A stretch of DNA of 25,042 nucleotides from a virus. The position numbers and the translations under genes are program-made. Within the stretch, counting starts at the first letter, position 1. Every line of letters starts with the position of its first letter. The stretch covers positions 1 to 25,042 of IMG/VR virus record IMGVR_UViG_3300044701_001469. One strand, 5' to 3'. Below, piece after piece: positions 1,719 to 15,322 of the stretch. Below the pieces are notes generated by a model that saw nothing but the letters and a program-made list of their open reading frames with translations, was not told where the DNA came from and searched no databases.

Positions 1719-2642
1719 ATGAACGAAATTAGAGATTTTAAAGGTGTTTGGATAAAAAAGGAAATTTGGTTAAATACAAATTTAACTTTAATAGAAAAGG
1801 TTTTAATTGTAGAAATTGATTCTCTTGATAACTCAGAACGTGGATGTTTTGCTTCTAATGAATACTTATCAAAATTTGTTAATTTATCAGAAGGTAGGGT
1901 AGCAAATATAATTAGCGATTTAAAGAAAAGAGATTTTATAATTCAACTTTTTTTTGATGGTAGGAATAGAGGATTAAGGACTAATAAACATAAATGTGAA
2001 AGCAGCTTTAACGAAAACGTGAAAGCAGAATTCACGAAAACAGTAAAGCAGCCTACACGAAAACGTGAACATAATAATACAGTTAATAATACAGTTAATA
2101 ATACAGATTATAATATATGCGAAAACGAATTTTCGCACACAGAAGATGAGATAAAAAATCCTTTTACAAGGCAAGGTTTCTCTGATTCCTTAGACGCTGA
2201 CAAGGTTAAAAAGAAAGAAAAATTGCGTGAAAAGAAAGAAAAAGCCGAGCCGAAGCAGCCCAGCGACATTTTTGTCGCTTACGAAATGTTCTGCACCTTC
2301 CATGAATCTGTTTCCGCTGCAAAGTATCCCCGTACCCTTAATGGCAATTATATCCTTAATCCAATTGATGCAAGGAATGTAAAGTTGTTATTGGAATGGG
2401 TTGAAAAGATTAATCCGGATAACAAGATGGACAACTTTAAAGTATTTGTACAGGCTGCCTGGATGCTTGATGATAAATATTTAAAGGCTAACTTTAATAT
2501 TGGTTTACTATATAGACAATGCACACAGATTTATGCAAAGGTGCAAAATAGTAATCCAATACTAAGTAAGCAAAAAAAGGAAGAACAGTTAAATGCTGAA
2601 GCTGCCGAGTTTTTGAGAAGTAGATATGGAATTGTAAACTAA
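1719..2642 (+). CDS. Phage replication initiator (winged-helix, lambda O-like organisation)
   Basis: This probably binds the phage origin and starts replication. The 307-residue protein begins with a winged-helix domain (about residues 18-88) of the HTH_36/replisome-organiser kind: a L-T-x-x-E-K-x-x-L helix, a S-N-E-Y-L-S-K-F helix, then a recognition helix around S-E-G-R-V-A-N-I-I-S-D-L-K and a wing. Residues about 90-185 form a polar, Lys/Asn/Glu-rich linker. The C-terminal part (about 185-290) is a compact helical domain. The linker DNA contains four 23-bp iterons, AT-rich repeats and a dyad, a layout like the origin inside lambda gene O. The winged helix is seen in the sequence. The initiator role is inferred from domain layout, the repeats and the replication neighbours. 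Confidence 0.7.
   Translation: MNEIRDFKGVWIKKEIWLNTNLTLIEKVLIVEIDSLDNSERGCFASNEYLSKFVNLSEGRVANIISDLKKRDFIIQLFFDGRNRGLRTNKHKCESSFNENVKAEFTKTVKQPTRKREHNNTVNNTVNNTDYNICENEFSHTEDEIKNPFTRQGFSDSLDADKVKKKEKLREKKEKAEPKQPSDIFVAYEMFCTFHESVSAAKYPRTLNGNYILNPIDARNVKLLLEWVEKINPDNKMDNFKVFVQAAWMLDDKYLKANFNIGLLYRQCTQIYAKVQNSNPILSKQKKEEQLNAEAAEFLRSRYGIVN
1988..2079 (+). repeat. Four tandem 23-bp iterons inside the initiator gene
   Basis: Units begin at 1988, 2011, 2034 and 2057, exactly 23 bp apart. The consensus is ACGAAAACGTGAAAGCAG plus five variable bases. Unit 2 fits fully, unit 1 differs at three core positions, unit 3 at three, and unit 4 matches the first 13 bases exactly. Because 23 is not a multiple of three, each copy is read in a different frame, so the periodicity is not explained by a protein repeat. 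This points to binding sites for the initiator. Confidence 0.8.
2073..2106 (+). repeat. AT-rich 12-bp direct repeats (2.8 copies)
   Basis: AATAATACAGTT occurs at 2073 and 2085 and, minus its last two bases, at 2097. The repeats encode an Asn/Thr/Val linker in the initiator. They lie directly against the iterons and may be the DNA-unwinding element. Since 12 is a multiple of three, a purely coding origin by slippage is also possible. Confidence 0.7.
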
Positions 2643-2656
2643 TAAACTATTATAAC

Positions 2657-2914
2657 ATGAATGACTTAAAGAACATTAAAGAGTTGATTGAATTTATTGA
2701 CTCAAGGATTGGTTTTTACAATCGAAGCCTTAGAGAGGTAGATGAAAAAACACTCTCCGCCTCTATTGACAAAGCCTATTTTTATGGTAATATGTCTGCA
2801 TTGCTTGACATAAGGGATACCATGACCAAGTTATCAAACAACATTGCTAACCCTAACTTATTTAGCCAAGATGAGTACGAACTTACCGGCAATTGCAGCC
2901 AAAACCAATTCTAA
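2657..2914 (+). CDS. Hypothetical protein in replication cluster
   Basis: This is an 85-residue, mainly helical acidic protein. It has no recognised domain. It starts 15 bases after the initiator stop, and its 3' end overlaps the next gene by 44 bases, so the three genes look co-transcribed. Its function is unknown, and a replication role would be guesswork from location only. Confidence 0.6.
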   Translation: MNDLKNIKELIEFIDSRIGFYNRSLREVDEKTLSASIDKAYFYGNMSALLDIRDTMTKLSNNIANPNLFSQDEYELTGNCSQNQF

Positions 2915-3629
2915 TTTAACCCACGTTGAACGCATTGTAAACCATAGGGAGAATAGGATAATGAAAATAGGTTTCCAGGCTGCCTATACCCAGGTTTACA
3001 ATTTGATTACTACATTGTTTCCGATGTATGGCATTGATGGAGCGAAGGAATACTACATGGAAGTTGCAGATCACATTGGAAGAAATTACAAATTACTTGC
3101 ACCCGAAGAAATAAAGACTGCTTTTGAATTGTTTTCGACCCAGCAGTTGGACTTAGATGAAGACATAAAGTTTTACGGGAAGGTCAACTTACACACATTA
3201 GGTAAGATTATAAATGCATATATGCTTTACAGAAATAAGATTACCTACCAAATAGACAAGGAAAAACAGGATAAGTTAGAACAGGAAATACTTGATAAGA
3301 AACGGGAATTGTCAAGTAAGGAATACGACCGTGACTTTGAGAATAAGTTACGAAATTTCCAATCTAATGACTTTAATGACATTCCTATTTACTGGTACGA
3401 CATGGCAGTTAGACTTGGTTACCTTACATGGAAGGATGGAGAGAAAGAGGCATTATGGGAAGAGGCAAAAGAGATTGCTAAGAACCTACCGCCAGACTCG
3501 GACAATGTTTACGACAGAAAAGCACACATGAGAAAAATAGCTGAAGGTAACTTGCCACGAGCAAAGGTCATAGCTTATAAGTTAGCGGTTTACAAAAAAG
3601 TAATTAATTTTACACTTGATGGTAAATAA
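2871..3629 (+). CDS. Probable replication-module protein, possible helicase loader
   Basis: This is a 252-residue soluble protein. The frame is open to an ATG at 2844, but the ATG at 2871 is preferred because it shortens the overlap with the upstream gene and has an A-rich leader. The N-terminal third is helical. A segment near residues 85-130 (E-E-I-K-x-A-F-E-L-F, followed by N-L-H-T-L-G-K-I-I-N-A-Y) resembles, from memory, uncharacterised Bacteroidetes phage replication-region proteins. The middle (about 130-170) is a charged helix, possibly a coiled coil. No ATPase motif is present. Its position after the initiator would suit a helicase loader, like lambda P after O, but no sequence motif proves it. 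Confidence 0.5.
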   Translation: MSTNLPAIAAKTNSNLTHVERIVNHRENRIMKIGFQAAYTQVYNLITTLFPMYGIDGAKEYYMEVADHIGRNYKLLAPEEIKTAFELFSTQQLDLDEDIKFYGKVNLHTLGKIINAYMLYRNKITYQIDKEKQDKLEQEILDKKRELSSKEYDRDFENKLRNFQSNDFNDIPIYWYDMAVRLGYLTWKDGEKEALWEEAKEIAKNLPPDSDNVYDRKAHMRKIAEGNLPRAKVIAYKLAVYKKVINFTLDGK

Positions 3630-4321: not shown

Positions 4322-4373
4322 TATTTTTTTTAATTATTTTTATTAAAAATGTACATTGTATTATATTTAGTAT

Positions 4374-4381
4374 TATCTTTG
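4374..4381 (+). promoter_or_regulatory. Bacteroidetes-type -7 promoter box TATCTTTG
   Basis: TATCTTTG fits TAnnTTTG. It lies 20 bases before the ATG at 4402, after a terminator. The 17 bases at 4368-4384 are identical to 1109-1125. A possible ATTG -33 element sits at 4355-4358, with a shorter spacing than usual. It likely starts the unit that runs to the terminator at 5345. Confidence 0.6.
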
Positions 4382-4401
4382 ATTTAATAAAAACCAAAAT
4401 C

Positions 4402-6803: not shown

Positions 6804-6898
6804 AGCAAGGTGGCGAAATTGGTAGACGCTATCGTTATAAAGGTAGAATGATAAATAGGTTACGCTTCATTCGTATAGGTTCGAATCCTGTCCTTGCA
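6804..6898 (+). tRNA. tRNA-Leu-like gene, anticodon not readable
   Basis: Acceptor strands GCAAGG (6805-6810) and CCTTGC (6892-6897) pair. The D arm, GCG (6813-6815) with CGC (6827-6829) around G-A-A-A-T-T-G-G-T-A-G-A, is typical of tRNA-Leu. A variable-arm hairpin TACG/CGTA (6861-6864 with 6872-6875) and a T arm with loop TTCGAAT (6880-6886) complete a type II tRNA. Two features are odd. The acceptor has only six pairs, with A opposite A at the end. The anticodon arm is best drawn with a 12-nt loop (stem 6831-6835 with 6848-6852), so no standard Leu anticodon follows a T33. No CCA is encoded. It could be a decayed gene. Confidence 0.5.
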
Positions 6899-6973
6899 AC
6901 TTACCAGTCCGAAGGTTATGATGAAGCATCTGACACCGTATGTTCATAAAGTAGGCTGGAACGGTGTAAATTT
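6899..6973 (+). other. Spacer between tRNA-like elements, one inverted repeat
   Basis: A 7-bp pair ACACCGT/ACGGTGT (6933-6939 with 6961-6967) encloses 21 bases. No further tRNA arm can be drawn with confidence. A 40-codon open frame starting at 6918 runs into the next tRNA-like element and is not considered a gene. Confidence 0.35.
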
Positions 6974-12868: not shown

Positions 12869-15322
12869 TTAATTTTTTTGCATTATATGCCAATTAGTGC
12901 CATCAGCAACTAATGTAACCCATTGAGGCGTAACATTTCCAGCTGATAAAATTGCAGTTCCAGCTGAACCGCCACTAAAAGGTATAACATTTGATGCGGT
13001 GCTAATTACTGTTCCTGTTGCAAGGTTTTTTATCATGTATTGCCTTCCATTTGTTGCGGTTGTTAAATCTATGGATGTTGTTGAAGCGCCGCCAGTATTT
13101 ACAATAGAAACTCGATTACTTGATAAAATAATTGAACTTCCAGCGGTTGATTCTACAAAAACATAACCAACATCAAGCGTACTTCTTGCTACGGATGCAC
13201 TTGTAGCCCCCGTGCCACCTTTTGAAATTGGCACCGTTCCAAGATTTAAGGAATCACCCGCTAAAGATAAAGGCGAGGTCAAGCGAACATTGCCTACAAC
13301 ATTACTCCCGTCTTTACCAAGTAAACTTGTAGGCGTTGCAGATACCGTTGCAATTCTTACCTCACCGTTTATATCAAGGGTCTTTGAAGGCGTTCCCGTG
13401 CCAATACCAACCCTATCCATTGACGCATCCACGAAAACCATGTTGGCGTTTTCGTCACTTTCAACGCGAAAGTCTGAATTGACTGAGCCTTCATTAAACA
13501 CGGCTGACCCATGAACCTCTAATGTTGATTGTGGATTTGTTGTACCTATACCGACACTACCTATTGATGTTATTCTCATTTTTTCAGTAAATCCATTAGC
13601 TGGTATAGCATTAGATGTTTGTGTCCAAAAAGATAAACCTCCAGCAATTTGAGTATTTGCTGATAAATAATCTCCTTCTCTAAATGAGCGAACACGACCA
13701 CTGGTAAAGTACCCACCGCTTGACCCTTGATAAAAATCAATGTCTGCCGTTTCGTCCGTGCTACCCGTTTCGCTAAATGAATTTGTAATACGCAATGATG
13801 TTGATGTACCGTTATTACTTTTTGAAACCTCAAAAAGATTTAAAGGTGTATTTGTGCCAATACCAAAATTTCCCACAAAATTAGCAGTTGTTCCCGTCAA
13901 TCCTCCTGTTAATGTTCCTCCTGTCAATGGCAAATAAGTTGATGCTGCAACGCCTGAGCGCAAATAATTTGTAAGCATTGAAGCAGTGTCGGAAATATTT
14001 AATTTTGTTGCAAATCTGGAATTAAGATTTAATGAGGTTGTATCTGAATCACGGAAATACGGAGTTAACATCGTAGCAGTATCAAGAATATTTAACTTAG
14101 TCGATAATCTGCTTTGAATGTTTAATGATATGGTATCTGCATCGCGGAAATACGGTAACAACATCGTAGCTGTATCAAGAACATTTAGTTTTGTAGATAA
14201 CCGGCTTTCCAGGTTTAATGAGGTAGTATCCAAGTCGCGGAAATAAGGCGTTAACATCGAAGCCGTGTCGCTTACCAAAAGTGCGGCAGTTGTATCGCGC
14301 CATAATCCATCAGAATAAAATAAACTTGATTTTTCAACTGGTGAGGTAATTGCCACGTTGTGCAATTCGTTTAAACTATAACCCGATGCCACACGAATTG
14401 AAATTGTACCATTGTTTGAAGATGAATTTATACAAAAGCCGATAGGCATATCAATGTTTGGTGCAACTGGCTCAACATCTGTCCAAACACCAGCCGTAGT
14501 TGGAGATGGGTAAAGGATTGCACCAGCCGCAAAGGTATCTGTGTTGACTTGTCTTATTTTGCCAAAGGAAATAACGTATCCATCCTCACCATCTGTTAAA
14601 TCATGTGCCGTTATTCCTAATAAATATTTAGCATCTATTGTGCCATCGGCTATAAACTTTGCAACTGTTATTCTGCCACTTGCTCCAACCGTGCCATTAG
14701 CATAAACAAGGCTTCCTTTTGTAATAGTTGAGCCTGTCTGATTCTTGACAAGCCAAAAGTTTTTAAATCCTAATTCATTTGGCACTTGGTCGTACATTCC
14801 CAAAACCACTGTACCTAAATCCGAATCCCATCGCATTTTAGCAGTGTCCACATTGTTTGGAGATACACTTGTTTTAAAAAACAATGAGTCAATAGGCTGA
14901 GTAAAATTGTTATTTATAATTACCGTATCGCCGTTACTAAACTTCCAGCCGCCCTTAGTTTTAATGTAATTGTAAAGAATATTATTTACCGTATCAAGGA
15001 TAAAATAAGCATTATTTATACCGCTACTTTTTATTCCTACGGTGTCCGATGCCCTACCTCGATACACCAGCCCATCTCCCGTAGTCTGATAACCTAATCT
15101 TTGCTTATTGCCTGTTGCTGGATACTGGGCAAAGGCAAATGATGAAGCTAAAATAACAAAAGCAATAATAAGGCCTTGTCGTTTATTGCCTACTTTGTCA
15201 ATGGCTTTGCCAATAAACTTTCTTGCAATTCCCATAACCAATTCATTAGCCAAAACCTTGGCAATGTTGCCTACGGCTTTTAAAAACTTCCTTTCTTTTT
15301 TGGGTGCTTTTATCTCTTCCAT
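12869..15322 (-). CDS. Tail fibre-like protein with internal signal-peptide-like segment
   Basis: This is an 817-residue, beta-rich, repeat-rich virion protein likely involved in host recognition. A basic N-terminal stretch (1-48) precedes a hydrophobic segment (50-65) ending F-A-F-A-Q, like a signal peptide. A beta-rich region follows, then about three and a half copies of a 31-residue repeat (near 352-455) with D-T-A-x-M-L-x-P-Y-F-R-D. Next come L-P-L-T-G-G-T-L-T-G and three G-I-G-T-x-x-P motifs typical of trimeric fibre shafts, and a glycine/serine-rich beta C-terminus. No intramolecular chaperone or peptidase domain is evident. It starts on the last base of the preceding stop. Fibre identity is strong; the purpose of the hydrophobic segment is unclear. 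Confidence 0.7.
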   Translation of the reverse strand: MEEIKAPKKERKFLKAVGNIAKVLANELVMGIARKFIGKAIDKVGNKRQGLIIAFVILASSFAFAQYPATGNKQRLGYQTTGDGLVYRGRASDTVGIKSSGINNAYFILDTVNNILYNYIKTKGGWKFSNGDTVIINNNFTQPIDSLFFKTSVSPNNVDTAKMRWDSDLGTVVLGMYDQVPNELGFKNFWLVKNQTGSTITKGSLVYANGTVGASGRITVAKFIADGTIDAKYLLGITAHDLTDGEDGYVISFGKIRQVNTDTFAAGAILYPSPTTAGVWTDVEPVAPNIDMPIGFCINSSSNNGTISIRVASGYSLNELHNVAITSPVEKSSLFYSDGLWRDTTAALLVSDTASMLTPYFRDLDTTSLNLESRLSTKLNVLDTATMLLPYFRDADTISLNIQSRLSTKLNILDTATMLTPYFRDSDTTSLNLNSRFATKLNISDTASMLTNYLRSGVAASTYLPLTGGTLTGGLTGTTANFVGNFGIGTNTPLNLFEVSKSNNGTSTSLRITNSFSETGSTDETADIDFYQGSSGGYFTSGRVRSFREGDYLSANTQIAGGLSFWTQTSNAIPANGFTEKMRITSIGSVGIGTTNPQSTLEVHGSAVFNEGSVNSDFRVESDENANMVFVDASMDRVGIGTGTPSKTLDINGEVRIATVSATPTSLLGKDGSNVVGNVRLTSPLSLAGDSLNLGTVPISKGGTGATSASVARSTLDVGYVFVESTAGSSIILSSNRVSIVNTGGASTTSIDLTTATNGRQYMIKNLATGTVISTASNVIPFSGGSAGTAILSAGNVTPQWVTLVADGTNWHIMQKN
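13958..14269 (-). repeat. 93-bp tandem repeats in fibre gene
   Basis: On the minus strand, units begin at 14269, 14176, 14083 and 13990, each 93 bp apart (31 codons), the last one partial. They encode D-T-A-x-M-L-x-P-Y-F-R-D followed by a S-L-N-L-x-S-R-L-S-T-K-L-N segment. In-frame repeats can change copy number by recombination and alter fibre length. Confidence 0.8.

Follow-up and report, generated by a model that had tools for sequence, protein, structure and literature searches.

Does the repeat array in the middle of one gene of this virus mark the place where its replication begins? To our knowledge, the origins of most phages are unmapped. The window, by which we mean the whole stretch of DNA analysed, is a linear virus record of 25,042 bases, and the initial annotation had proposed that a replication origin laid out like that of lambda lies within its initiator gene. 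This reading is supported by the retention of the iterons in homologues, by the recurrence of the layout across phyla, by a link between the iterons and the DNA-binding domain and by the replication genes found as neighbours. From these comparisons of sequence we predict, with a probability of about 0.88, that 1985-2137 is the theta-type replication origin of the phage, situated within the gene for its own initiator. The gene and the parts of its product are as follows.

1719-2642, plus strand: HTH_36-type replication initiator gene, 307 aa (PF13730 and PHROG matches), with the whole putative origin inside it
1746-2003, plus strand: winged-helix DNA-binding domain, about residues 10-95 (AlphaFold model)
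2004-2255, plus strand: disordered linker, residues 96-179, in whose coding sequence the putative origin lies (AlphaFold pLDDT <50 for residues 96-178)
2256-2627, plus strand: helical C-terminal domain, residues 180-303 (AlphaFold model)

The protein matches PF13730 (HTH_36) with an E-value of 3e-7 and 30.6 bits against a curated cut-off of 25, and so belongs to that family; PHROG replication initiation families match it with E-values from 7e-11 to 3.5e-8. The Pfam search returned PF13730 and HTH_46 only. It did not place the protein in PF04492 (Phage_rep_O) and found no RepA_N domain, the resemblance to RepA_N proteins being one of fold only. When the PDB was searched by sequence the full initiator had no match, and a profile of the domain gave weak winged-helix matches. 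In the AlphaFold model the pLDDT is high for the winged helix (about residues 10-95), below 50 for residues 96-178 and mostly above 90 from about residue 180. Structures resembling the modelled winged helix include the plasmid RepA 4pql (Z 9.2, 97 residues aligned, 3.0 A), 4pt7 and the N-domain of DnaD, 2v79 (Z 9.0, 93 aligned, 3.8 A), and many MarR-type winged helices are also among the look-alikes of the initiator model. The C-terminal domain is divergent and is swapped between relatives, with an amino-acid identity within the window's clade of 35% compared with 86% for the DNA-binding domain. It is presumed to make the contact with the helicase or its loader.

The elements of the putative origin follow one another along the linker, the iterons and the dyad being given without a strand.

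1985-2000: iteron 1, degenerate palindrome TAAACA-TAAA-TGTGAA, 4/6 pairs, unit start 1988
2008-2023: iteron 2, palindrome TTAACG-AAAA-CGTGAA, 5/6 pairs, unit start 2011
2031-2046: iteron 3, palindrome TTCACG-AAAA-CAGTAA, 3/6 pairs, unit start 2034
2054-2069: iteron 4, palindrome TACACG-AAAA-CGTGAA, 5/6 pairs, unit start 2057
2072-2115, plus strand: AT box array, AATAATACA at 2073-2081, 2085-2093 and 2097-2105 (12-bp period), proposed unwinding element
2118-2137: dyad TGCGAAAA-CGAA-TTTTCGCA, arms 2118-2125 and 2130-2137, 4-nt loop

As had been claimed, the repeats lie in the coding sequence of the stretch that AlphaFold predicts to be disordered, and the four units start exactly 23 bp apart, at 1988, 2011, 2034 and 2057. 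The core first quoted for them, ACGAAAACGTGAAAGCAG, is exact at 2011 only; the units at 2034 and 2057 have ACGAAAACAGTAAAGCAG and ACGAAAACGTGAACATAA and that at 1988 has the degenerate ACATAAATGTGAAAGCAG, and the array is better described as three full iterons with a degenerate first unit. Each copy had also been placed in a different reading frame, which holds for consecutive copies, though the fourth is again in the frame of the first unit, as 69 = 3 x 23. What had been overlooked is the palindromic build of every unit, with inverted arms round an A-tract and the consensus TTCACG-AAAA-CGTGAA. Compared with unit 2, unit 1 has A-T instead of G-C as the innermost pair on both sides (ACG..CGT to ACA..TGT), and the left half of iteron 1 is altered or missing in most relatives. 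The best 69-bp self-match in the initiator gene is 48/69 at a period of 23, compared with maxima of 41 in 500 dinucleotide shuffles, 43 in 500 codon shuffles and 40 in the rest of the window. The strength of the array at a single locus is moderate, since for the near-identical relative L017 a p of only 0.08 was obtained in a cruder test based on 12-mers; the strong evidence comes from comparison.

The initial annotation had argued that selection must act on the DNA, and the codons used by relatives in the window's clade bear this out. Where the amino acid is unchanged, codon identity is 95% in the iterons (315/331) and 99% in the AT box (121/122), whereas the DNA-binding domain has 59% and the C-terminal domain 55%, and none of 141 control windows comes up to the iteron value. 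Since the codons of the iterons and AT box are kept while their amino acids are less conserved (78 and 63%, respectively) than those of the DNA-binding domain (86%), it is the DNA rather than the peptide that is kept. Alignment of homologues, a check suggested at the outset, shows the 23-bp spacing of the iterons kept and the choice of codons elsewhere in the gene drifting.

To cover a wider range of relatives a profile of the DNA-binding domain was used, which found hundreds, from which the best 80 matches in viral contigs and the best 80 in cellular genomes were kept; with named phages added, the survey set was 126 non-redundant loci. Amongst these loci, which were picked by similarity of the DNA-binding domain and hence are not phylogenetically independent, 60 of 94 long proteins have at least three iteron copies at p <= 0.02. 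The 60 arrays have 157 spacings, of which 131 measure 20-24 bp and another 23 measure 42-46 bp, or about two periods. The spacing is not a multiple of three in 120 of the 157, and all 60 arrays use two or three reading frames, such that the DNA word TTCGGAAAA is read as FGK, SEN or LRK within one protein. The palindromic build is general: over 73 loci the best 6-bp arms have a mean of 4.93 matches against 3.75 in shuffled units (z 15.8), with letters that vary by relative, as in CTTCGG-AAAA-CCGAAG (L124), TAGTCA-AAA-TGACTA (L106) and ATTCGA-AAAA-TCGAAT (L050). Short proteins consisting of the DNA-binding domain only have three copies in 1 case of 25 (L096); their best repeat is at 20-24 bp in 8 of the 25, seven of these being pairs, such as chance can produce.

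Proteobacteria, Firmicutes, Fusobacteria and Bacteroidota all have relatives with the layout of iterons and AT box, and additional named phages with it are those of Staphylococcus, Lactobacillus, Fusobacterium and Erysipelothrix. It was not found in Vibrio phage D65. Orf5 of Leptospira phage LE1 and the initiator of an Oceanospirillum phage were also considered; both have the domain, the former with no iteron array and the latter with weak repeats. The short exception, L096 (78 to the end of the ORF), is a 136-aa initiator that has AT boxes as well as its three palindromic iterons but stops early, giving a DNA-binding domain and origin without a long C-terminal domain. Other short HTH_36 proteins of about 120-140 aa, mostly from Verrucomicrobia (L125, L130, L134-L136, L142, L143, L149), have the DNA-binding domain only, without iterons, and are possibly regulators. 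The initiators of L020 and L028 are mosaics, which differ in the sequence of the N-terminal domain and have the end of the linker and the C-terminal domain in common; this suggests recombination inside the origin.

The AT-rich 12-bp repeats that had been noticed after the iterons prove to be AATAATACA boxes at 12-bp steps. The paired motif has two matches in the window and none in 100 shuffles. Amongst the relatives, the motif [AG][AG]TA[AG]TA[CT]A is no more than 70 nt from the last iteron at 54 of 75 loci, against 1.1% of control windows from the same genes, with most failures coming from the Halomonas clade, which is mostly without the box. In genes with a GC content of at least 45% the motif is present in 12/23 against 0 control windows. 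In these GC-rich genes the Thr codon of the box is ACA in 22/22 cases against 28/337 (8%) elsewhere, the Ser codon AGT in 15/15 against 11% and the Asn codon AAT in 24/28 against 30%. A motif-first scan of viral contigs with AATAATACANNNAATAATACA gave 92 sites at 80 loci, of which 67 sites lie in ORFs with the DNA-binding domain of the initiator, and several further sites are truncated by the end of the contig; in the loci with the domain the box keeps one frame (Asn-Asn-Thr). By a hand count on printed sequences from members of several phyla, the box starts about 14-16 bp past the start of the last A-tract. In the group of Halomonas, Vreelandella and Salinicola (L103-L128) the iterons are of alternating types with a 45-bp super-period, and mostly there is no AATAATACA box, GGGGTTCAG repeats coming after the iterons instead.

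Beyond the boxes, the 8-bp dyad TGCGAAAA / TTTTCGCA is present as described. Thirteen of 18 clade members, the window and 12 others, have, past the AT box, a stem of 6 bp or more that closes a loop of exactly 4 nt, at an offset from the box start of 45-48 nt in 12 of the 18 and of 31 in L036. The arms seen in the clade are TGCGAAAA/TTTTCGCA, GTGAATT/AATTCAC, GTGAAA/TTTCAC and GAAAATTC/GAATTTTC; as their letters differ between members, the pairing is kept while the letters change. As a feature of the whole family the dyad fails, being found in only 18/73 loci at p <= 0.05, largely those of the window's clade, and weak outside it. Under the same script, the downstream dyad of lambda itself was not the best stem.

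If the winged helix reads the iterons, the two would be expected to vary together, and the sequence of the iterons does track the DNA-binding domain. In partial Mantel tests, in which shared ancestry is only partly controlled, the correlation of iterons with the DNA-binding domain given the C-terminal domain is 0.61 (p 0.002), and that with the C-terminal domain given the DNA-binding domain is 0.06. Among the sampled downstream neighbours DnaB is found in L037, L039, L146, L154 and L163, DnaC-like loaders in L009, L040 and L124, AAA ATPases in L044 and L151, and a homologue of lambda P in L010 (PF06992, E 4.5e-30); some of the neighbours sampled have no match. The corresponding gene in the window is the following.

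2871-3629, plus strand: next large gene, encoding an all-helical protein (phrog_26016, function unknown)

Its product has no recognised homology to helicase loaders and no clear fold in the PDB (best Z 5.5); from its position we infer a candidate helicase loader. On the other side, an HNH endonuclease with an AP2 domain, of the homing type, is encoded at 1232-1717, abutting the initiator gene, and may be a mobile gene placed beside the origin.

A winged-helix protein might instead use the iterons to regulate its own operon, with replication starting elsewhere. The winged helix is of a generic kind and has many MarR-like look-alikes, palindromic sites fit a dimeric repressor, and the relatives with a DNA-binding domain only may themselves be regulators. 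Against an operator, the sites are situated some 270 bp into the gene, in three to six phased copies followed by an AT box at a near-constant distance; almost all of the short relatives are without the array; genes for DnaB, DnaC-like proteins and lambda P are among the sampled neighbours; and the same layout in lambda and pSK41 belongs to proven origins (PMC7466680, PMC5703833). On balance we regard a purely regulatory role as improbable.

More doubtful still is another cis-acting site bound by the initiator protein, for packaging, partition or incompatibility. Iteron arrays do have roles in partition and packaging in other systems; here, however, no terminase or partition gene was recognised adjoining the array, replication genes neighbour the arrays of relatives and the protein matches replication-initiation families. 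It is least likely of all that the repeats belong to the protein, as a low-complexity disordered linker that arose by tandem duplication and is either neutral or selected as a peptide. The predicted disorder of the linker and the single frame of the AT box in the motif-first loci with the domain would suit this, but it is already contradicted by an iteron period that is not a multiple of three, by the crossing of frames in all strictly detected arrays and by the frozen synonymous codons, those of the box being otherwise uncommon in GC-rich genes.

For the origin reading, the selection at the DNA level, the order of the elements, the helical spacing, the near-constant distance to the AT box and the clade-specific dyad are each shown by the sequences themselves. 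In the mechanism that we propose, the N-terminal winged helix would bind the palindromic iterons, which their spacing of 22-23 bp (about two helical turns) would set on one face of the DNA, giving a complex like the O-some of lambda. Strain in this complex may then melt the AATAATACA boxes beside the iterons; the replicative helicase would be brought to the opened strands by the C-terminal domain, either directly or via the product of the downstream gene. The dyad may have a secondary role as a hairpin or as everted half-sites. Cumulative GC skew, run on the window and on three relatives of 38-39 kb, tracks the gene strand in two of the relatives (+0.14/-0.14) and is flat in the third, and thus cannot place the origin.

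The likeness to lambda that was first remarked upon, with iterons in the linker, an adjoining AT-rich element and a dyad beyond, is found in each of its parts in the window. In lambda also the iterons lie mid-gene, between the N- and C-terminal domains of O, with spacings of 20, 24 and 23 bp compared with 23 bp here, and the lambda iteron TCCCTC-AAAAC-GAGGGA has the same build as TTCACG-AAAA-CGTGAA in the window. The lambda iterons are known as imperfect inverted repeats round an A-tract, and footprints of the O protein on them have been published (PMC7466680). Both have an AT-rich tract downstream of the iterons, though that of lambda is without the AATAATACA box, and in lambda the gene for the helicase loader P comes next, whereas the next gene in the window is not a recognised lambda P. 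O itself belongs to PF04492 and the window protein to PF13730. To call the initiator unrelated-looking was nevertheless too strong, as the window protein and lambda O both match PHROG 678, 391, 345 and 277. Of the two origins suggested for the design, convergent or ancient, these families in common make shared descent likelier than convergence. An hhalign comparison of the initiator family with lambda O was not significant, a weak result as lambda O was a single sequence.

In pSK41 the winged-helix N-domain of RepA_N binds four Rep boxes central in rep, and the protein can do without the linker that the origin encodes (PMC5703833). The model of the window protein resembles 4pql and 4pt7; the pSK41 initiator differs in the family of its DNA-binding domain, in its C-terminal domain and in coming from a plasmid rather than a phage. 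For the chimeric rep of pPR9 the N-domain was reported as pfam13730, an in-gene origin was inferred and a mini-replicon replicates (PMC5703833). Its repeats precede four AATAATAC words that recur every 15 bp, but they are spaced 45/48/15 bp in a single frame and the C-domain is that of RepA. As a close relative pPR9 fails, with an E-value for HTH_36 of 0.006 and a DNA-binding domain missed by the family profile. The DnaA-trio and 5'-TTATT-3' single-strand elements of oriC are short AT-rich repeats beside initiator boxes (PMC10797057). AATAATACA likewise holds TAA/TAC triplets and its complement TTATT, a putative functional parallel, though no DnaA boxes were shown in the window.

In-gene origins are thus already established by lambda O and pSK41 RepA_N, and the window is a variant of that design. 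What we did not find described is the breadth of in-gene iterons in the HTH_36 initiators of phages and the conservation of the AT box across phyla; the literature searched, mostly outside subscription journals, contained no survey of in-gene iterons in HTH_36 initiators. A tentative extension, which we hold to be possible but on the doubtful side, is that these initiators share an origin code across phyla, made of palindromic iterons at 22-23 bp followed, about 14-16 bp past the last A-tract, by a AATAATACA box that is sequence-specific. Beyond being AT-rich, the box would be a DnaA-trio-like single-strand recognition element, read by the initiator, host DnaA or the helicase loader.

If the origin reading is true, the sequence alone would suffice to place the origin of many HTH_36 phages and prophages within 150 bp, in at least Bacteroidota, Firmicutes, Fusobacteria and Proteobacteria. 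The lambda arrangement would then be a general strategy of phages, the DNA-binding domain and origin moving together as a single cassette and being combined with different C-terminal domains and helicase partners. A further question, raised by the conservation of the AT box, is whether phage origins contain a sequence-specific single-strand signal.

The assignment of the host to Bacteroidota rests on a relative in a Saprospiraceae bin (L097) and on a promoter word of the TAnnTTTG type. An identical 15-mer, AGTATTATCTTTGAT, occurs in two intergenic spots of the window, 1110-1124 and 4369-4383, with none expected in shuffles; we take TATCTTTG inside it to fit the Bacteroidota -7 promoter word TAnnTTTG. 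ARAGORN finds no tRNA at 6804-6899, where an Rfam tRNA match scores 31.1 against a gathering threshold of 29, and this is possibly a tRNA-like or decayed tRNA sequence. Within an 817-aa gene on the minus strand there is a 93-bp tandem repeat of 2.6 copies (14024-14263), the period of which is a multiple of three and thus points to a repeat at the level of the protein.
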